DNA of 64,000 nt. Origin: Leeuwenhoekiella sp. MAR_2009_132 (GTDB lineage: Bacteria > Bacteroidota > Bacteroidia > Flavobacteriales > Flavobacteriaceae). Each line of letters starts with the position of its first letter. The first letter of the stretch is position 1. The notes below the pieces were generated by a model. That model made no database searches and was not told the DNA's origin. It saw only the letters and a list, made by a program, of their open reading frames with translations. Below, one piece after another: positions 2,932-38,763 of the stretch. Both the position numbers and the translations under genes were made by a program. The DNA is taken from contig NZ_JHZY01000004.1 of NCBI RefSeq assembly GCF_000687915.1, positions 1,994,001-2,058,000 of the forward strand. Direction: 5' to 3'.

Positions 2932-4581
2932 ATGACTATAATTTCTTTTTTAGCATTTACAATTTTAGTGGCTCTGGTATCCTGGCTTGCGGTAAGAAAG
3001 CAAGACGAAAGTACTTCAGACGGATATTTTTTAGGCGGCAGAAGTTTAACTGCTGGTGTTATTGCGGGATCCTTATTACTTACAAACCTTTCGACAGAAC
3101 AAATCGTAGGTCTTAACGGAAGTGCCTATAAAGACGGATTGTCTGTAATGGCCTGGGAAACGCTTGCTGCAATATCAATTGTGGTTACCGCTATTTTCCT
3201 ACTTCCGCGGTATTTAAAAGGAGGTTTAACTACAGTTCCTCAATTTCTAGCGCAACGTTTTGACGTTTCTACAAAAACCATTACCTCTGTTTTGTTTCTA
3301 TCTGGTTATGTGGTAGTGCTACTTCCGGTAATTTTATACTCGGGATCTGTAGCTTTAAGCGGAATGTTTAATGTGCCAGAACGTTTAGGCGTGTCTGATA
3401 CCACGGCTTTAGTTATATGTATTTGGGGAATTGGAATTATTGGTTCTATTTATGCCGTTTTTGGAGGTTTAAAGGCAGTAGCCGTTTCTGATAGTATTAA
3501 TGCAGTAGGTTTAATTATAGGAGGGGTTTTAATACCTGTTTTTGGTTTGATGGCAATAGGTGACGGAAGCGTTATGAATGGTCTGACAGTATTAGTAGAT
3601 TCTGACCCTGGTCGATTTGACTCTACCGGTGAACCTGGCCAGGAAGTACCTTTTTCTACCATTTTTACAGGTATGATGCTTGTGCAATTATTTTACTGGG
3701 GTACAAACCAGCAAATCATTCAGCGAGGTCTGGGAGCAAAAAACCTTGCAGAAGGTCAAAAAGGACTTTTATTAGCTGCATTTTTAAAAATATTGGGTCC
3801 TATCATTTTAGTGTTGCCGGGTATGATTGCTTACTATTATTTTGAAGGAGGTCTTTCAAGTAGTGATTTAGCTTATCCTGAATTAGTGCGAGCGGTGTTG
3901 CCAAAACCATTAGTAGGTTTCTTTGCAGCCGTACTTTTTGGAGCGATATTAAGTTCATTTAACAGTGTGCTCAACAGTTCGGTTACCTTGTTTGGTATAG
4001 ATATTTATAAGCAACATGTTAATAAGGAGGCTCCTGAAGCAACGGTAGTTAAATACGGAAAAATATTTGGGGTGTGTCTTGCTTTAGCCGCGATGTTTAT
4101 CGCACCATTTATAGCAAATGCAGGAAGTTTGTTTAGCTATCTGCAAGAGATAAACGGTATTTACAGTATTCCTATTTTTACAATAATCGTAGTAGGTTAT
4201 TTAACGAAGAGAGTACCTGCAATAGCAGCAAAAATTGGAATTATTAGTGGGTCATTAATGTATATAATTAGTCAGTTTGTATTAAAACCTAAATTGATAA
4301 ATGATGCAGTCGAAGCAGCAAAGGCCAGCGGTATTACAGATGCAGAAGCTTTACATATGGTTGAGGTAGGTGCATACCCGCATTATCTACACGTAATGGC
4401 AATGCTATTTATAGCAAACATTGTGATTATGCTTATTATAGGTAAGTTATATCCACGGAAAGAACCGTTTGTGTTAGAATATACCAAGCAGGTTTCTATA
4501 GAACCTTACAAGTATGTAAAACAAGTAGGTGTTGCGATATGCTTAATTGTAGTAGGTATTTATATATACTTTGCGAAGTAA
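2932..4581 (+). CDS. Sodium/solute symporter (SSS family), probably sugar-specific
   Basis: Integral inner-membrane protein of 549 residues with about 13-14 hydrophobic segments. Family marks are the N-terminal SDGYFLGGRSLTAGVIAGSLLLTNLS, the TTVPQFLAQRFD loop, YAVFGGLKAVAVSD, and the FGAILSSFNSVLNSSVTLFGIDIY segment. These place it in the SGLT-like part of the SSS family, which couples sugar uptake to Na+. Divergence from galK-galT points to galactose or a related sugar; that substrate is inferred. A strong hairpin terminator follows at 4589-4633. Other in-frame Met codons exist, but MTIISFLAFTILVALVSW matches a normal first membrane segment. Confidence 0.9.
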   Translation: MTIISFLAFTILVALVSWLAVRKQDESTSDGYFLGGRSLTAGVIAGSLLLTNLSTEQIVGLNGSAYKDGLSVMAWETLAAISIVVTAIFLLPRYLKGGLTTVPQFLAQRFDVSTKTITSVLFLSGYVVVLLPVILYSGSVALSGMFNVPERLGVSDTTALVICIWGIGIIGSIYAVFGGLKAVAVSDSINAVGLIIGGVLIPVFGLMAIGDGSVMNGLTVLVDSDPGRFDSTGEPGQEVPFSTIFTGMMLVQLFYWGTNQQIIQRGLGAKNLAEGQKGLLLAAFLKILGPIILVLPGMIAYYYFEGGLSSSDLAYPELVRAVLPKPLVGFFAAVLFGAILSSFNSVLNSSVTLFGIDIYKQHVNKEAPEATVVKYGKIFGVCLALAAMFIAPFIANAGSLFSYLQEINGIYSIPIFTIIVVGYLTKRVPAIAAKIGIISGSLMYIISQFVLKPKLINDAVEAAKASGITDAEALHMVEVGAYPHYLHVMAMLFIANIVIMLIIGKLYPRKEPFVLEYTKQVSIEPYKYVKQVGVAICLIVVGIYIYFAK

Positions 4582-4666: not shown

Positions 4667-5248
4667 ATGTTTAGAAAAGTATTCGTCATTCAGGCGGTAA
4701 TAGCCTTGTTTGCTTTTTCCACAAATGCACAAACTACCCAGAATGTTTCCGTAGAAAAGTCTATTTGGGGTGTTCAAACCGGGTTACTAGGAATATGGGG
4801 AAATAATGAATCAAGACTTTCAGAAACTATCGCATTGCGCTCAGAAATAGGTTTGAATGGAGGTTTTGCCGCGGGTACTTTTGTAGAAGATGGTTTTCAG
4901 TGGGTGTTAGCGCCTACTCTAAATATTGAACCCAGGTGGTACTACAATATGAGGAAGCGGGCTGCTAAAGGGAAAATAACAGAAAAAAACACAGCTAATT
5001 TTTTCGGTTTAAAAACTGCCTATAATCCTGATTGGTTTTTAATTAGTAGTTCAGCAAATAATTCTGTTATAGAATCGCTAACGATTACCGCTCAATGGGG
5101 AATTAAGAGAACGCTCTGGCAACATTTCACGTATGAAGTAGGCCTCGGTTTGGGTTATGGAGTTGAATTTTGGAAGCAAAAGGGTTTTTCTGAAAATGAA
5201 CACCTTATTGCAGGTAATTTACTTTTGCGCTTGGGATACACGTTTTAA
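4667..5248 (+). CDS. Small exported protein, probable outer-membrane beta-barrel
   Basis: 193 residues, of no family I recognise. The N-terminus MFRKVFVIQAVIALFAFSTNAQT is a clear Sec signal peptide with cleavage near Ala-Gln. The mature part alternates aromatic and polar residues (EPRWYYNMRKRA, FTYEVGLGLGYGVEFW) and ends in RLGYTF; a terminal Phe is typical of outer-membrane barrels. The frame is open upstream to 4571, but that extension runs through the terminator of the previous gene and would bury the signal peptide, so the ATG at 4667 is chosen. It stands alone between two terminators. Confidence 0.75.
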   Translation: MFRKVFVIQAVIALFAFSTNAQTTQNVSVEKSIWGVQTGLLGIWGNNESRLSETIALRSEIGLNGGFAAGTFVEDGFQWVLAPTLNIEPRWYYNMRKRAAKGKITEKNTANFFGLKTAYNPDWFLISSSANNSVIESLTITAQWGIKRTLWQHFTYEVGLGLGYGVEFWKQKGFSENEHLIAGNLLLRLGYTF

Positions 5249-32359: not shown

Positions 32360-33007
32360 CTATTTTGTGTATGCCAGTCTTCTAGAGGCTTTACGCATTA
32401 AAACATTTATGAGATCGTCAGAATTGCTTCCAAAGCTTCCGGAAACTTTCTTATTGTAATTCCATAGTAACTCGCCATCTGCTGCATTGTTAATATTCAT
32501 ATTTACAATCGCAGAATTTGTACTTCCCCAGAAGCCTATTAAAAGGCCTAATGCAATAGAAGCCCCCTCAGACATAGGTTTGTTAGTGTCGTAAGTGCCA
32601 GATATGATGGCGTCAACTTCCAGAATTTGAGCAAGTTCTTCTGGAGTATAGGTTTCTATATTTTCTGCATTGATGTTTTGCTTCAATAATAAAGCCTTTG
32701 TACGTGATGGTTGTTGTACCTCTATTGCGAGGGTTCCTCTTTTTTTACGTTTAAGAAACCAGGAATACATAGCGTCCTGGAGGCTTTCAGCTTCGCTTAA
32801 TTGCATCTCTTCCAGTTGACCGGGCTCTAACTTTTCCATCTGCTTGGGGCGTAATTCTATTTTTGTTTTAAAAGGTAGAATAGCAATGTTTTTATGGTCT
32901 TTGGCTAGCTCGTCAAACTTTGGATTTTCATATAAATGCGTTTGAGACTGGGCGATAAATCCGCTTAAAAAAGTAACTAGAAAAAGGAATTGTGTAATTT
33001 TTTTCAT
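32360..33007 (-). CDS. Exported protein with CsgG-like features
   Basis: 215 residues. The ATG at 33007 gives the signal peptide MKKITQFLFLVTFLSGFIAQSQ; the frame is open 11 codons further, but that would hide the signal. The mature part has HKNIAILPFKTKIELRP, then AESLQDAMYSWFLKRK, VDAIISGTYD and a C-terminal ADGELLWNYNKKVSGS. The pattern IAILPF ... DAIISG.Y ... G.LLW is that of CsgG- or GNA1162-like periplasmic domains, an assignment I make with moderate confidence. No lipobox Cys is present. It stands alone. Confidence 0.7.
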   Translation of the reverse strand: MKKITQFLFLVTFLSGFIAQSQTHLYENPKFDELAKDHKNIAILPFKTKIELRPKQMEKLEPGQLEEMQLSEAESLQDAMYSWFLKRKKRGTLAIEVQQPSRTKALLLKQNINAENIETYTPEELAQILEVDAIISGTYDTNKPMSEGASIALGLLIGFWGSTNSAIVNMNINNAADGELLWNYNKKVSGSFGSNSDDLINVLMRKASRRLAYTK

Positions 33008-33224
33008 ATTTGAGGTTATTGTTTGGTTCGCAATAACCACAAAACTAATGACTTTTCAAATTAGTATTATTCAAAATTATTTTATAAAGGCGTTTTATGA
33101 CTTTGACTCAATCTCTTTTATTTTTTTAATCTAAAGCGCTTTACCGCTAATGTATTTTACGCTTTAACTATTTGAGTTCTTTAAAATAAAGTAGTTTTAC
33201 AAACTCATTATTTAAAAATAATTT

Positions 33225-34181
33225 TTGAAAGGAACGGTTTACAAATCTACCGGAAGTTGGTACAGCGTTAAAACAAAAGACGGCACATTTTACGATTGCC
33301 GTATTAAGGGCCGCTTTAGAATGCAGGGTATAAAAAGTACAAATCCTGTGGCGGTAGGCGATACGGTTGTGTTTGAGTTAGAGCAGACCAGTGATGCTGT
33401 AACGGGAGTTATTAAAGATATAGACAAACGAGAAAATTACATCATACGTAAATCTGTAAATTTGTCAAAGCAGACGCATATTATTGCTGCAAATATAGAT
33501 CTGTGTTTTTTAGTTGTTACGCTTAACAATCCACCTACATTTACTGCATTTATAGATCGATTTTTAGTTACGTGTGAGGCTTATCATATCAAAGCTGTTT
33601 TGCTTTTTAATAAAGTAGATACGTTAAATGATGAAGAATTTGGCGAGGTTAAATATCTGGCCGAAATGTACCGTGAAATAGGGTATACCTGTATTGGTGT
33701 TTCTGCAAAAACCGGTAAAAATGTAGATCAGGTCAAAGAATTAATGCTGGGTAAAACCAGTATGTTCTCGGGGCATAGTGGTGTGGGTAAATCTACGCTG
33801 GTCAATGCACTAGAGCCTTCATTAGATTTAAAAACTAAAGAAATAAGCGGTCAGCATATGCAAGGTCAACATACAACTACTTTTGCAGAGATGTATGATC
33901 TTACGTTTGACGCCCGTATAATAGATACTCCAGGAATAAAAGGTTTTGGAGTTGTTGATATTGAAAAGGAAGAGTTAGGTAATTATTTCCCTGAGTTTTT
34001 TGCGTTAAAAGATCAATGCAAATTCAATAATTGCTTACACCTTGAAGAACCTAAATGCGCAATAAAAGAAGCTCTTGAAGATGACCAATTAAGCTGGTCA
34101 CGTTATCAAAGCTACAAACAGATTATTGAAGGAGATGAGGAAAATTACCGGCGTAATGTTTATGATCAACCTCAGCCCTAA
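33225..34181 (+). CDS. rsgA: Ribosome small-subunit GTPase RsgA
   Basis: Circularly permuted GTPase of 318 residues for late 30S maturation. An OB-fold N-terminus is followed by NKVD (G4), SAKTG (G5), then GHSGVGKSTLVNAL (G1) and DTPGIKGFG (G3). The C-terminal zinc motif CKFNNCLHLEEPKC is intact. The start is TTG at 33225 (reads KGTVYKSTG), chosen because the OB fold begins there. The dtd gene follows after 23 bases. Confidence 0.95.
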   Translation: MKGTVYKSTGSWYSVKTKDGTFYDCRIKGRFRMQGIKSTNPVAVGDTVVFELEQTSDAVTGVIKDIDKRENYIIRKSVNLSKQTHIIAANIDLCFLVVTLNNPPTFTAFIDRFLVTCEAYHIKAVLLFNKVDTLNDEEFGEVKYLAEMYREIGYTCIGVSAKTGKNVDQVKELMLGKTSMFSGHSGVGKSTLVNALEPSLDLKTKEISGQHMQGQHTTTFAEMYDLTFDARIIDTPGIKGFGVVDIEKEELGNYFPEFFALKDQCKFNNCLHLEEPKCAIKEALEDDQLSWSRYQSYKQIIEGDEENYRRNVYDQPQP

Positions 34182-34204
34182 GTTACATTCCCTAAATTTA
34201 AAAT

Positions 34205-34657
34205 ATGCGAGTAGTTATTCAGCGGGTAAGCGAAGCTTCAGTAATTATAGATAATGTTATCAAAGGAGAAATAGCTTCTGGCTTTATGATACTTCTTGGT
34301 ATTGAGCCTAATGACAATGAGTCTGATATTGACTGGCTAACTTCAAAGATATGTGGCCTTCGCGTTTTTAGTGATGCCGAGGGTTTAATGAATGAAAGTA
34401 TTATTGATCAAAATGGCGAAATACTTTTAATAAGTCAGTTTACTTTATTTGCATCTACAAAAAAGGGAAATCGACCTTCATTTTTAAATGCTGCGAAACC
34501 CGAAATTGCAATTCCACTGTATGAAAATTTTGTAGGAGTACTTTCTCAGAAGCTTGGCAAACAGGTTAAAACAGGCGAATTTGGCGCCGATATGAAAGTT
34601 TCCATCATCAACGATGGGCCAGTAACTATTACAATTGATTCTAAAAACAGAGAGTAG
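34205..34657 (+). CDS. dtd: D-aminoacyl-tRNA deacylase
   Basis: 150 residues; removes D-amino acids from tRNA. Family marks are MRVVIQRVSEASV at the start, SQFTLFASTKKGNRPSF (catalytic-site Thr), and the Gly-cisPro motif NDGPVTITI near the end. The full gene is intact. Its last 204 bases are repeated at 36611-36815 with about 95% identity, so the 3' end of dtd was the site of a past insertion or recombination. Confidence 0.95.
   Translation: MRVVIQRVSEASVIIDNVIKGEIASGFMILLGIEPNDNESDIDWLTSKICGLRVFSDAEGLMNESIIDQNGEILLISQFTLFASTKKGNRPSFLNAAKPEIAIPLYENFVGVLSQKLGKQVKTGEFGADMKVSIINDGPVTITIDSKNRE
34454..34657 (+). repeat. Direct repeat copy 1: 3' end of intact dtd
   Basis: This segment matches 36611-36815 base for base over long stretches. 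In the clearly alignable 180 bases I count nine substitutions, six of them silent. The two copies bracket an accessory segment of about 2 kb. Confidence 0.9.
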
Positions 34658-34673
34658 TCCTGATCTAAATGTT

Positions 34674-35432
34674 TTAAAGCCAGTATTCGCTATAGAAATT
34701 GATGCTTTCAAGAAGTTGATCATGATTGCCAGAAGCTTGAATTGTACCGTTTTCTAGTACATAGATCGTATCGGCTATTTTTGGCAAATTGTGAAGACGA
34801 TGTGAAATAAATAACACAGCACAATCGCTTTTTATTTTACCCAAAATCTTGAGGATAAAATTTTCTGTATTCCTATCCATTGCCGCAGTAGCTTCATCAA
34901 GGGTAAGTAAATCTGGATTTTTATAAAGTGCGCGTGCAAATGCCACGAGTTGTTTTTGTCCACCAGAGAGGTTGATGCCTTCTTCACCTAAAATTGTAGC
35001 TACACCTTGTGGGAATTTGGCAAAAAGTTGATCAAAACTATATTCCTTAAGAAAGGCATTTAACCTGTCAAAATTTACGTCGCTCCCGAGAAGGATATTG
35101 TCAATTACGGTACCCGGAAAAATGTGGATGTCTTGTGGTACAACCCCTATATAATCTCGGTAGCTTTCTAGGGAAACCGCTTCTAAGTCTTGATTACCAT
35201 TTAATAGAACAGTTCCACTTTCTATTTTATAAAAACCTTGAAGAATTTGCCCAATAGTACTTTTGCCATTACCGCTTTCTCCAACTAAAGCGGCCAGTTT
35301 ACCCTTTTCCAATTCTATAGATACATTTGAAAACAACTGTTTTTTACCAGCAAATCGAAGAAAAATAAACTCGGCTAAGCTTATTATTTTAAGAAGAGCT
35401 TTAAATTTTATAGATACATTTATGAAAAAAAG
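34674..35432 (-). pseudogene. ABC exporter remnant: nucleotide-binding domain fused to a membrane-protein fragment
   Basis: From about 35390 down, the frame encodes a complete ABC nucleotide-binding domain. Walker A is VGESGNGKST, the Q-loop VPQDIHIFPG, the signature LSGGQKQL, Walker B LLTLDEATAAMD and the H-loop ISHRLH. These resemble peptidase-containing bacteriocin exporters. The peptidase and membrane domains are missing. Upstream in the same frame is a short hydrophobic stretch (KALLKIISLAEFIFL) that seems to belong to another membrane protein, then a stop at 35433-35435. A deletion therefore seems to have joined two broken genes. Function is unlikely, although the ATPase motifs are all intact. 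Confidence 0.75.
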
Positions 35433-35665
35433 TCAAGTATTAATGATTGCAGCTAAGATAAAGACTTTTATAAAAAGAAATACGGGGATCTATAAATTAC
35501 CTACCCATTGCCATTTAGAAGTCGATGCAACTACATCATTTAATTGATCAGTAGTTAGAGTATCGGCCAGATTAGATAAAATAAGTGCTTCTGTGTGTAA
35601 TAGTTTTTTGGAAACCAACTTAGGGCTAATGTTAGAATAACCAACAATATAAAATTATACTTCAT
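35433..35665 (-). pseudogene. Remnant of a small membrane protein
   Basis: An ATG at 35665 opens a signal-like or membrane stretch (MKYNFILLVILTLALSWFP) that ends at a stop after 36 codons. In the next frame the sequence continues sensibly (LILSNLADTLTTDQLNDVV, then STSKWQWVGNL), meets a TAG, and goes on with a hydrophobic segment (IPVFLFIKVFILAAIINT) up to the TGA at 35433. One frameshift and two stops thus break a single membrane-protein gene, which runs into the ABC remnant. I do not recognise the family. Confidence 0.65.
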
Positions 35666-35670
35666 ATTAC

Positions 35671-35722
35671 TAAATTTCAAAAACACTTATTTGGGATTTC
35701 AAATAAGTGTTTTTGAAATTTA
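35671..35722. terminator. Perfect 23-bp hairpin, bidirectional terminator
   Basis: Arms 35671-35693 and 35700-35722 are exact reverse complements around a 6-base loop (GGATTT). It lies just beyond the small membrane-protein gene and would separate that and the peptide gene from the decayed export cassette. Confidence 0.75.
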
Positions 35723-35731
35723 TTACTAAAA

Positions 35732-35911
35732 TCAATTAGACTTGTTCTTAAAATAAAATCTTATACCAGTAAGTAAAGAGATAACCAGAGCAAAAATAAT
35801 TAATAGCATGCTGTCAAAACTAGTTCCTTGAGCATAGGTAAAAGTATATGTCAATGATGCAATTAATATAATTCCAATCAACGTTAAAAGTATCGGGAGG
35901 TTTTTATTCAT
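35732..35911 (-). CDS. 59-residue membrane protein next to the bacteriocin-like peptide
   Basis: ATG at 35911 to TGA at 35732-35734. Two hydrophobic segments: about residues 6-20 (PILLTLIGIILIASL) and about 35-49 (MLLIIFALVISLLTG), joined by a polar loop with AQGTSFDS, and ending in basic KNKSN. It starts 22 bases after the stop of the double-glycine peptide gene, on the same strand. Size, topology and position fit an immunity protein for the peptide; that is inference. No family recognised. Confidence 0.65.
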   Translation of the reverse strand: MNKNLPILLTLIGIILIASLTYTFTYAQGTSFDSMLLIIFALVISLLTGIRFYFKNKSN

Positions 35912-35933
35912 GATTATTTTGTTCCTATATTAT

Positions 35934-36143
35934 TTACCCAATCATATCACTCAACCAACCATTATGACAGTTTGCTAATGAACCCGTAGCAATTGCAACC
36001 CCAATTAAACAGCCAGCACCCATAGCAAGAACAGTTACTGCAGTACCGGCAATTAAGCCAGCTATTATAATGGAATTACTAGCATTATCACAACGATTAC
36101 CTCCATTTAAATTTTCCATTTCGTGTAATTTTAAACTTTTCAT
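35934..36143 (-). CDS. Double-glycine leader peptide, bacteriocin-like
   Basis: 69 residues. The leader MKSLKLHEMENLNGG is a typical double-glycine export signal, cleaved after Gly15 by peptidase-containing ABC exporters. The 54-residue core is rich in small and hydrophobic residues, has GxxxG-type spacings (Gly29/Gly33, Gly44/Gly48) and three Cys (18, 45, 59), as in class IIb bacteriocins. Followed by a 59-residue membrane protein, a strong hairpin and a decayed exporter. If still expressed, it would need an exporter encoded elsewhere. The target is unknown. Confidence 0.75.
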   Translation of the reverse strand: MKSLKLHEMENLNGGNRCDNASNSIIIAGLIAGTAVTVLAMGAGCLIGVAIATGSLANCHNGWLSDMIG

Positions 36144-36252
36144 AAAATGAAATTTTTAAGTTAAAGATAGTTAATTTATTGTTGTGAGTTATAAAAAATG
36201 TCGTTAAATATGATAATTATAAAAAAAGGATAAAAATAATTTGTCTCAATAA
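36144..36252. other. AT-rich spacer upstream of the bacteriocin-like gene
   Basis: Non-coding; probably holds the promoter of the minus-strand peptide gene, but no clear -7 box was found. The later non-coding part of this accessory stretch, 36558-36610, shows nothing. Confidence 0.4.
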
Positions 36253-36557
36253 TACCTTGCTGAGCGCGTACTAATCGCCCAAGCCACCTTAAGTAATATT
36301 GAGAGTAGCAAATCTGTACTACACATTCAACTTTTAGAACGATTAGCTACGGAGCTAGAGACCGATATCTATGAATTAATATCTTCTCAAAAGATTGTAG
36401 CGAAGGATAAAAACAACATTGCAGCACTGATAATAGTACCAATGTTATATACCAACTTTCAGAAAAGCTTATAGCGCAATACGAATTACGCATAAAAGAG
36501 AAAGATGAACAAATAACTGAGTTAAAAGCCCGGTTAAAGCGGTTTGAAAACCTTTAA
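36253..36557 (+). pseudogene. XRE-family regulator remnant
   Basis: The frame starting at 36253 without a start codon reads YLAERVLIAQATLSNIESSK and then HIQLLERLATELETDIYEL, the second half of an XRE helix-turn-helix domain. After a frameshift near 36420-36440 it continues as a coiled-coil tail (SEKLIAQYELRIKEKDEQITE) ending at a TAA at 36555. The first helices and the start are missing. Probably a former regulator of the accessory segment. Confidence 0.75.
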
Positions 36558-36610
36558 TAGCGTTCTAATTCTTGATTTAAAATGTTTAGTCTCAAAATAT
36601 AGATTTAATT

Positions 36611-36815
36611 TCTACCAAAAAAAGGAAATACACCTTCATTTTTAAATGCCGCGAAACCCGAAATTGCAATTCCACTGTATGAAAATTTTGTAGGAGCACT
36701 TTCTCAGAAGCTTGGTAAACGGATTAAAACAGGTGAATTTGGCGCCGATATGAAAGTTTCCATCATCAACGACGGGCCGGTAACTATTACAATTGATTCT
36801 AAAAACAGAGAATAG
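36611..36815 (+). repeat. Direct repeat copy 2: detached 3' end of dtd
   Basis: A second copy of the last 67 or so codons of dtd including the stop. Relative to copy 1 it has GCT to GCC, GGC to GGT (twice), GAT to GAC, CCA to CCG and GAG to GAA (silent), and three conservative amino-acid changes (V to A, Q to R, V to I). The mostly silent pattern means both copies spent time under selection as part of working dtd genes. It cannot be expressed as a protein here. Confidence 0.9.
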
Positions 36816-36843
36816 TTTAGGAAAATATTAAGATTTTAGTATA

Positions 36844-38763
36844 TTGCTAAACAATATACATATTATCAAAAAGTTATTATTCCTCCTAATTGTTTGCCCC
36901 CTACTTACATTTAGTCAAGAAGTAAACTTCTCAGCATTAAATGTCGACTCTGCCCTTTCTCAGGGAGCAGACAGTGTAATTATACACGAAGAAATCACCT
37001 TAGACCTTTCAGAAGAAGGCACGTTAAAAACTTCAGTTTATAGAGTTGTTACCGTTTATAATAAGGCTGGTTTATCTGATGTGAAAGCCTATGCTAGTTA
37101 CAATAACAATTCTAAAGTTTCTAAAATAGAAGCAGTTATCTACGACTTACTGGGCAATGAAAAGCAAAAAATAAAAAAGCGAGATTTTAAAGATGTGAGT
37201 GCAGTAAGCGGCGGAACGTTGTATGCAGATAGTCGCATCATGTATTTAGATTATACGGCAACTTCATATCCCTATACGGTAAGTTTTGTTTCAGAAACCG
37301 AATCTAAAACCACTGCTTTTCTCAGAGAATGGATGCCCGTCTCCCGGTATGAAAGTGGAACTCAATTCTCACAATTTACTGTAATACATAATCCGGAAAA
37401 TATCCTAAGATCAAAATCTACACACCTAGAGGAGTATGATGTTACGGTAGAAGAAACAGCAGTTAAAACCGTTTGGACGGCACGTAATATTACCCCGATA
37501 TCACAAGAATATAATTCTCCTGCTCTCGATAAAAGAATGCCACGTGTAAAGTGCTTTTTTGATACGTTTTATTTAGAAGGAGTACCTGGTATTGCCGGCA
37601 ATTGGAAAGATTTTGGTAAATGGATGTATGATGAATTGGTTATAGATACACAAGATCTCGATGCAGCGACTATAGCGCAAGTGCAAGAACTTGTTAAAGA
37701 TCTACCAGATGAGGAGGCTAAGGCAAGAGCTATTTATCAACTTGTACAGGATAAGGTAAGGTACATTAGTGTGCAGGTAGAAATAGGTGGTTGGAAACCT
37801 ATGAATGCTTCAGATGTACAGCGATTAAGTTATGGCGACTGTAAGGCTTTAAGTAGCTATACACAAAGTTTGCTTAAAGCGGCGGGTATAAAATCCTATT
37901 ATACCATTTTATACGGTGATACCGGCAAAGAGTCATTAGAGACAGATGTTGTTGCTATGCAGGGTAATCACGCAATTTTGGGTGTACAGCTTGGAGATTC
38001 TATTAAATTTTTAGAATGTACCAGTCAGGAGACTCCATTTGGTTATATGGGTTTGTTTACAGATGACAGAGACGTTTTATTAGTAACCGAAGAAGGTGGT
38101 AAGCTGGCACGAACTACAAAATACGAGCAGGAAGATAATCTCAATAAAGTCTCAGCAAAATTTATATTAGACGCCGCAGGCGATTTATCGGGTTCTATAT
38201 CCAGAACTTCCGAGGGAATTTATTATTCGGCCCGAATGCAGTTAGACACTAAGAATGATAAAGATCTCAAAGATTACTATTACAACACTTTTGACGGTAT
38301 AAAGAATCTATCGGTATCAGATATTAGTTTGCAAAATGATAAGCTGGCAATTAACTATAAAGAAGACATGAATATTGAAGCATCTGGATATGCTTCAAAA
38401 ATAAATGAGAATTTTTTAATTGAAGTAAATCCCTTTGCGCTTACAAGAGATGCAATACCGCCACGTTATGTTGATCGAAAATCGAATTTTATAATTCTAA
38501 GAGGCACGGTGCAAAAACAGGAAGTTGAAATTGCGCTTCCTCAAAATTTCACAGTAAATAGTCTTCCTGAAGATATCGAAATTACTGAAGAATTTGCCTC
38601 CTACAAGGCAACCTACAAAATCAAAGAGGGTATGCTATACTATACCCGCATTTTAAAATTAAACGAAGGAGAATATTCGGTAGGTGTTTATAATGCGTAT
38701 CGTGATTTTTATAAAAACTGTGTGCGTTTAGATGGTCAAAAATTACTAATTGAAAAAAAATAA
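36844..38763 (+). CDS. DUF3857/transglutaminase-like exported protein, catalytic triad kept
   Basis: 639 residues with a signal peptide (LLFLLIVCPLLTFSQ; TTG start at 36844). An N-terminal DUF3857 beta-domain (about 35-270) is followed by a transglutaminase-like domain. The likely nucleophile is Cys333 in SYGDCKALSSY, with His in QGNHAILGV and an acidic residue in KFLECTS. A beta-rich C-terminal region (about 440-639) follows. First of three tandem paralogs separated by 3-base gaps, so one operon. Periplasmic or surface location; activity (peptidase, transglutaminase or a structural role) unknown. Confidence 0.83.
   Translation: MLNNIHIIKKLLFLLIVCPLLTFSQEVNFSALNVDSALSQGADSVIIHEEITLDLSEEGTLKTSVYRVVTVYNKAGLSDVKAYASYNNNSKVSKIEAVIYDLLGNEKQKIKKRDFKDVSAVSGGTLYADSRIMYLDYTATSYPYTVSFVSETESKTTAFLREWMPVSRYESGTQFSQFTVIHNPENILRSKSTHLEEYDVTVEETAVKTVWTARNITPISQEYNSPALDKRMPRVKCFFDTFYLEGVPGIAGNWKDFGKWMYDELVIDTQDLDAATIAQVQELVKDLPDEEAKARAIYQLVQDKVRYISVQVEIGGWKPMNASDVQRLSYGDCKALSSYTQSLLKAAGIKSYYTILYGDTGKESLETDVVAMQGNHAILGVQLGDSIKFLECTSQETPFGYMGLFTDDRDVLLVTEEGGKLARTTKYEQEDNLNKVSAKFILDAAGDLSGSISRTSEGIYYSARMQLDTKNDKDLKDYYYNTFDGIKNLSVSDISLQNDKLAINYKEDMNIEASGYASKINENFLIEVNPFALTRDAIPPRYVDRKSNFIILRGTVQKQEVEIALPQNFTVNSLPEDIEITEEFASYKATYKIKEGMLYYTRILKLNEGEYSVGVYNAYRDFYKNCVRLDGQKLLIEKK

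Follow-up and report, generated by a model that had tools for sequence, protein, structure and literature searches.

The window analysed here is a 64-kilobase (kb) stretch of a 2.3-megabase (Mb) contig (C4), which belongs to a 4.28-Mb genome assembled in five contigs (99.97% complete, 0.36% contamination) and whose nearest Dtd relatives suggest the genus Leeuwenhoekiella. The subject of this study is an insert that follows the gene dtd. On the forward strand the gene order is rsgA, dtd, the insert, a detached piece of the end of dtd, and two DUF3857-type genes. The gene rsgA (33225-34181; Pfam RsgA_GTPase, E 3e-54) is a conserved upstream neighbour, found upstream of dtd in all 12 congeners across a gap of 13 to 1046 bases. 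Full-length dtd (34205-34657; Pfam Tyr_Deacylase, E 5e-57) is an open frame of 150 residues, and the DUF3857/transglutaminase-like gene at 36844-38763, identified with Pfam, is its native downstream neighbour. Rfam gave nothing at gathering score within 33000-38500.

The final 200 nucleotides of full-length dtd form the first copy of a direct repeat (copy 1, 34458-34658), and the second copy (copy 2, 36616-36816) lies 2158 bases on, at the far end of the insert and in the same orientation as dtd. The copies are 94% identical over 201 ungapped nucleotides, in agreement with an earlier note on this DNA that had reported a duplicated dtd end, and blastn extends the alignment to 206 columns with one gap at 93.7% identity (34454-34658 against 36611-36816). 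In the repeat search of the whole window for direct repeats of at least 45 nucleotides, a tRNA-Val pair was the only other one. Copy 2 lacks the first 84 codons of dtd. The two copies differ at 12 nucleotides (10 transitions and two transversions), which fall in 11 of the 65 codons wholly inside the repeat; seven of these codons differ silently and four carry replacements (R90T, V112A, Q120R and V121I), so that the differences can be called mostly silent, as they were in the earlier note, only loosely. At the far joint the likeness ends at 36611, with TCTAC common to both and one extra base.

The congeners indicate which copy is resident. The site is uninterrupted in 11 of the 12, where dtd lies directly before the DUF3857 gene and the start of the latter is about 22-41 bases past the dtd stop. 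In the twelfth congener (G008, locus L113) dtd is followed by mazG at a distance of about 60 bases; a DUF3857 protein query, in a search without its own positive control, found no match in that genome. All 12 congeners have a single dtd match per genome. The 40 bases behind copy 2 agree with the corresponding bases of G005, G002, G009, G011, G010 and G006 at 33, 31, 30, 33, 33 and 28 positions, respectively, and for each of these six congeners none of 2000 shuffles was equally good. The 40 bases behind copy 1 agree with the 12 congeners at only 9-15 positions. Since it is copy 2 that has the native spacer behind it, we read this copy, which carries R90T, together with that spacer as the old, displaced end of the resident dtd. 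The roughly 2.16 kb between full-length dtd and copy 2 we take to be intruding DNA, and copy 1 would then belong to an incoming or hybrid allele.

A second case is present in a genome of another genus (G173, locus L149). Here dtd (3915-4367) is followed from position 4367 by a ydjM-family gene whose ATG overlaps the dtd stop, and a 119-nucleotide scrap of the dtd end, 89.9% identical, lies at 4975-5093, followed by the native spacer and by DUF3857 from 5157. In two congeners of this genome (G360 and G430) dtd lies directly before DUF3857, and the spacer of G360 is homologous, by eye, to the one behind the scrap. The duplicated stretch starts at codon 112 in G173 and at codon 85 in the window genome, and the 12 differing codons in G173 comprise six silent and six replacing ones. 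Among 22 genomes with coordinates for both genes, G173 being left out, dtd and ydjM are adjacent in 16 (four of them with the same one-base overlap), 0.8-4 kb apart in four and located elsewhere in two. Since the two genes are a common pair in other genomes, what entered G173 was most plausibly the dtd end of a donor together with the ydjM gene that ordinarily adjoins it. Both dtd cases would require one homologous joint and one joint that lacks clear homology.

An allele from outside the genome bears on the origin of copy 2. The protein database holds a complete Dtd (P0003) that is 98% identical to the window Dtd and identical over residues 1-95; it stands for a cluster of four members and one contig (longest, 5939 bases), and its identity suggests that it comes from the same or a sister species. 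This protein agrees with copy 2 at A112 and R120 and with copy 1 at V121 and R90, and has a T96 of its own. Only R90T and V121I are therefore private to copy 2, the former at a residue that is conserved in 12 of 12 congeners, and the other two replacements are probably not the product of decay because they are present in a complete Dtd. Copy 2 thus looks like a once-working resident allele with some later decay, a reading based on two residues, and the P0003 allele appears to support import more strongly than does the share of silent differences. A search of viral_contigs with a 46-base stretch common to both copies found no conspecific or donor DNA.

Detectable scraps of dtd are rare in the family. 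Of 397 genomes surveyed, 382 have a Dtd match, and scraps were detected in two of these 382, the window genome included, in a search that very short scraps would escape. More than one Dtd match was found in the window genome (G000), G173, G314 and G409. We rejected G314 as a multi-copy genome, since both pieces are at contig ends and we take them to be parts of a single gene broken between contigs. G409 carries three full dtd genes on three contigs and a contig-end piece (L150, L151, L152 and L153); two of its dtd loci share 96% identity over 1.9 kb and differ in their flanks, which could reflect a strain mixture or a real multiplication. No dtd-end scrap was found in 109 other loci, some from the same genomes, with flanks of 1.5 or about 6 kb (shorter at contig ends); short matches of 16-41 nucleotides were all that 12 of them gave. 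As a separate observation, in L058 and L060 (Dokdonia) and L095 (Nonlabens) dtd nucleotides of about 326-359 recur on both strands in the flanking DNA, as if a palindromic repeat lay inside the gene.

The gene that follows dtd varies. In a sample of 73 loci (the 12 congeners, G173 and 60 family genomes taken from the upper part of the list of Dtd matches and so not random), dtd is followed first by DUF3857 in 42 loci, by mazG in 16, by ydjM in six, and by another or unclassed gene in nine; in two of these nine the first match is a weak one of DUF3857 type. This count shows the variability of the slot over the family and gives no rate. Repeats elsewhere in the genome were sought in forty spaced 20-kb stretches of C4, as same-strand repeats of at least 60 nucleotides and at least 80% identity that lie 300-15000 bases apart (2500 bases were masked in one stretch). 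Repeats were found in eight of the 40 stretches, and one of them is a gene-end scrap (L253:11573-17017, G000:C4:440001-460000): 78 nucleotides of the argS 3' end, 94.9% identical, 5.4 kb from argS. Genes for an extracytoplasmic function (ECF) sigma factor, FecR, a TonB receptor and a lipoprotein-like product lie between argS and its scrap, and a rhodopsin gene stands beside the scrap. As in the window genome, argS and a TonB receptor gene meet tail-to-tail, only a few bases apart, in four of the 12 congeners, and in a fifth a partial match lies 1.2 kb off. The argS scrap is probably the same kind of scar, and dtd is probably not unique in this respect. The suggestion in the earlier note that the dtd end may be a hotspot is only weakly supported: the variable gene after dtd speaks for it, and the rarity of scraps and the similar scrap at argS in the same genome count against it.

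The other seven stretches contain tandem arrays (L250, L265 and L291), a 3.9-kb repeat (L249), a whole-gene repeat (L261), a cassette-like arrangement (L263) and one unassigned repeat (L289). In L261 (193-3738; G000:C4:1320001-1340000) a 1051-nucleotide direct repeat at 96.8% identity, which includes a whole gene for a 165-residue lipoprotein-like protein, flanks two other genes. In L263 (4172-12871; G000:C4:1540001-1560000) repeats of about 119-209 nucleotides at 75-93% identity lie between small unrelated genes, like a cassette array.

The insert has a G+C content of 32.1%, compared with 36.5% in the window, and the cargo listed in the earlier note was recovered: two small intact open reading frames (ORFs), the ATPase end of an exporter and a broken regulator. 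On the reverse strand, a 220-residue ORF (34674-35336; ABC_tran, E 3e-29) encodes the ATPase end of a truncated peptide-export ATP-binding cassette (ABC) transporter, whose peptidase and membrane parts are absent from the insert. Its best relatives among 60 genomes are longer exporters of G015, G014 and G027, which it matches at their C-terminal ends (54-57% identity; the G027 exporter is cut by its contig end), with 57% to the end of a 716-residue exporter in G015 that aligns over its length to NCBIfam bacteriocin_ABC, its best NCBIfam match, below the model cut-off. PADLOC gave six matches for the exporter end (best, mad3 at 4e-25), which we rejected as reflecting a shared ATPase fold, and none for p59 or p69, the two small proteins encoded next on this strand. 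The first, p59, is a 59-residue membrane protein (35732-35911, intact ORF) and by its position a candidate immunity protein; an identical protein occurs in a database cluster with two contigs (longest, 1871 bases), so that the cargo seems to occur outside this assembly as well. The second, p69, is a 69-residue bacteriocin-like peptide (35934-36143, intact ORF) with what we take, by eye, to be a double-glycine leader. It has no match in Pfam or NCBIfam, no significant match to the double-glycine peptide of G015, no relative in 298 other family genomes, and none beyond itself among 5.8 billion proteins.

Between the exporter end and p59 lies a 42-residue ORF on the reverse strand (35490-35618), a possible remnant of a 211-residue membrane protein of G015 (tblastx, 25% over 85 columns, a weak match in conserved order). 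It is followed by a hairpin at 35665-35728 with 29-nucleotide arms and a 6-nucleotide loop, a near-perfect inverted repeat (z -8.9; 0 of 200 shuffles equally stable) that is probably a terminator, perhaps two-way, after the peptide genes. A frame-broken remnant of an XRE/HTH_3 regulator lies on the forward strand (36256-36474; HTH_3, E 2e-4, 21.8 bits against a cut-off of 23, with weak PHROGs regulator matches). In G015 (locus L138) one strand carries, in order, a double-glycine peptide, a 49-residue membrane protein, the 211-residue protein, a short ORF, a 107-residue weakly thioredoxin-like protein and the 716-residue exporter. Because the order in the window matches this one and the 42-residue remnant aligns, weakly, to the 211-residue protein in its place, we read the cargo as a peptide-export cluster of the same kind after a deletion between the 211-residue gene and the ATPase end of the exporter. 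In both clusters a peptide with a double-glycine leader (a putative one in the window), a small membrane protein and an exporter succeed one another on one strand, as in peptidase-type bacteriocin export; unlike that of G015, the window exporter lacks its peptidase and membrane parts, and its partner genes are missing.

We consider it likely that the segment is the footprint of a gene capture by general recombination, anchored in dtd at one end and joined without clear homology at the other. The donor would have been a very close relative whose dtd lay tail-to-tail with a bacteriocin-type peptide-export cluster. Its DNA would have paired with the recipient dtd, and one crossover in or upstream of the gene would have linked the recipient chromosome to the donor dtd end and the adjoining gene. 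The far end may have been joined directly to the middle of the old dtd without real homology (homology-facilitated illegitimate recombination), or the piece may first have circularised and then integrated by one crossover; the two routes give the same map and are indistinguishable here. The old dtd end would thereby have been left as a 201-nucleotide scrap beside the native DUF3857 spacer. Decay of the cargo would have followed, with the loss of most of the exporter and of the partner genes and the breakage of the regulator, leaving the peptide and membrane-protein genes. In outline this is what the earlier note had proposed, entry by recombination of DNA that brought its own dtd end and left the old one behind, and the native spacer behind copy 2, the dtd-DUF3857 order in congeners, the G173 case and the P0003 allele all agree with it. 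As for uptake, comEC is present in the window genome, which proves little because the same family also matches in 10 of 14 control genomes. Natural competence is described as reported in two Riemerella species and as not seen in F. johnsoniae (PMC7965970).

The main argument of the earlier note, that the silent bias shows a working donor, is weak. We simulated 12 changes under several constraint models for the two copies. With both copies free, the probability of at least seven silent codons is 0.008-0.029 and the model is rejected; with both strongly constrained, that of at least four replacements is 0.029-0.053; a partly constrained copy 2 (omega 0.3) gives a good fit, the best to the split between silent and replacing changes. 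When copy 1 is constrained and only copy 2 is free, at least seven silent codons arise with a probability of 0.095-0.168. Seven are therefore not unusual under this model, the silent share alone is indecisive as to a working donor, and we dropped the bias as proof of import. In a tree with the 12 congeners the two copies group together at 99/96, with nearly all change on copy 2 (branch lengths of 0.067 for copy 2 and 0.005 for copy 1). Such a grouping apart from all other dtd genes had been named in the earlier note as evidence against import. The congeners, however, are only 67-79% identical over the repeat, so that the tree neither shows nor excludes a conspecific donor, and P0003 counters the grouping by sharing two residues with copy 2 against copy 1.

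Several observations weigh against capture by recombination. No donor with dtd adjoining this cluster was found, in a comparison set without DNA of conspecific strains, and at only two of the differing residues does P0003 side with copy 2. In the ungapped comparison six of the 12 congeners match the spacer behind copy 2 no better than shuffles (13-16 of 40 positions, with 5-63% of shuffles equally good). Half of the differing codons in G173 are replacing, so decay would explain much there, and the argS flanks of the 12 congeners (1.5 kb, less at one contig end) contain no rhodopsin gene. The ratio of silent to replacing changes is compatible with duplication in place followed by decay, and the long branch of copy 2 also suits a decaying copy, although seven silent codons among 11 differing ones do not.

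In an explanation that we regard as unlikely, the dtd end was duplicated within the genome when the cargo was inserted or earlier, after which copy 2 was free to decay. The grouping of the copies against the congeners and the replacement R90T at a conserved residue favour it, as does the fit of the silent share to a model in which constraint acts on copy 1 only. It is opposed by the two of the four copy 2 replacements that occur in a complete Dtd elsewhere and by the number of silent codons, which is too high for free decay if copy 2 took nearly all changes, as judged from the model with both copies free. It also leaves the dtd-ydjM unit of G173 unexplained.

A site-specific integrative element at the dtd 3' end, which carried a replacement end and has since lost its integrase, was the other possibility raised in the earlier note, and we find it very unlikely. 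The insert does begin just past the stop codon and leaves the gene whole, and the same gene end was struck in two genera. The repeats, however, are long and diverged (201 nucleotides at 94% and 119 at 90%) where an exact core would be looked for, and their different starting codons in the two genomes leave no common core on the far side; the G173 cargo, moreover, is a single gene that is an ordinary dtd neighbour elsewhere. The earlier note had stated that no integrase remains, and neither integrase nor transposase was recognised with Pfam (two scans, of five and nine insert ORFs) or PHROGs (nine insert ORFs). An artefact of assembly or strain mixture, for which there is no specific point, is scarcely credible, as a single 2.3-Mb contig holds both copies, in a nearly complete genome with little contamination, and the identical 59-residue protein on other contigs supports the cargo, if not the joints.

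Like the dtd locus, the minimal mobile elements of Neisseria have differing content placed between conserved genes, in many cases with no gene for mobility. The dtd locus resembles in the same respects the hotspots described as exchanged through flanking core genes (PMC5635113), although a double recombination at both flanks would presumably leave no gene-end scrap. The closest natural analogue that we found is provided by the type VI secretion system (T6SS) loci of Vibrio cholerae, for whose immunity-gene arrays the same mechanism of module insertion has been proposed (PMC5361080). The module there is likewise anchored by upstream homology and has an illegitimate joint downstream, with the old downstream gene, and once also the 3' end of the old effector, pushed behind the new module (PMC5361080). 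The T6SS anchor is a weapon gene and the events are stacked, whereas at dtd the anchor is a housekeeping gene, the events are single and the cargo has decayed. PMC3240628 describes, in laboratory crosses, both homology-facilitated illegitimate recombination and the single crossover of circularised DNA, and the dtd locus would be like them in having one homologous end and one that is not, or a circle integrated by one crossover. Either route would give the map of gene, cargo and partial gene; those routes come from laboratory crosses, whereas the dtd case is deduced from natural sequence. A limited search of the open-access literature returned no title or abstract on the dtd slot or on dtd-end scraps.

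The type of event is therefore one already described, and it is well supported that the dtd locus is a clear natural example of it; dtd was also the site of a further instance, in a different genus. Because a double crossover leaves few marks, most gene gains without an element are hard to date or to polarise, whereas the scrap of an old gene end preserves the resident allele, the incoming allele and the positions of the joints. Tentatively, and as a possibility that we hold to be less probable than not, scraps of core-gene ends in marine Flavobacteriaceae may form a fossil record, open to counting, of gene capture that is one-sided and needs no element, in which the donor gene order is transplanted with the cargo and which makes a real contribution to variable slots. 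If this is true, the two dtd cases in two genera and the argS case would be the first entries of that record, and a survey of scraps would allow the share of one-sided events in natural gene gain to be measured instead of assumed.

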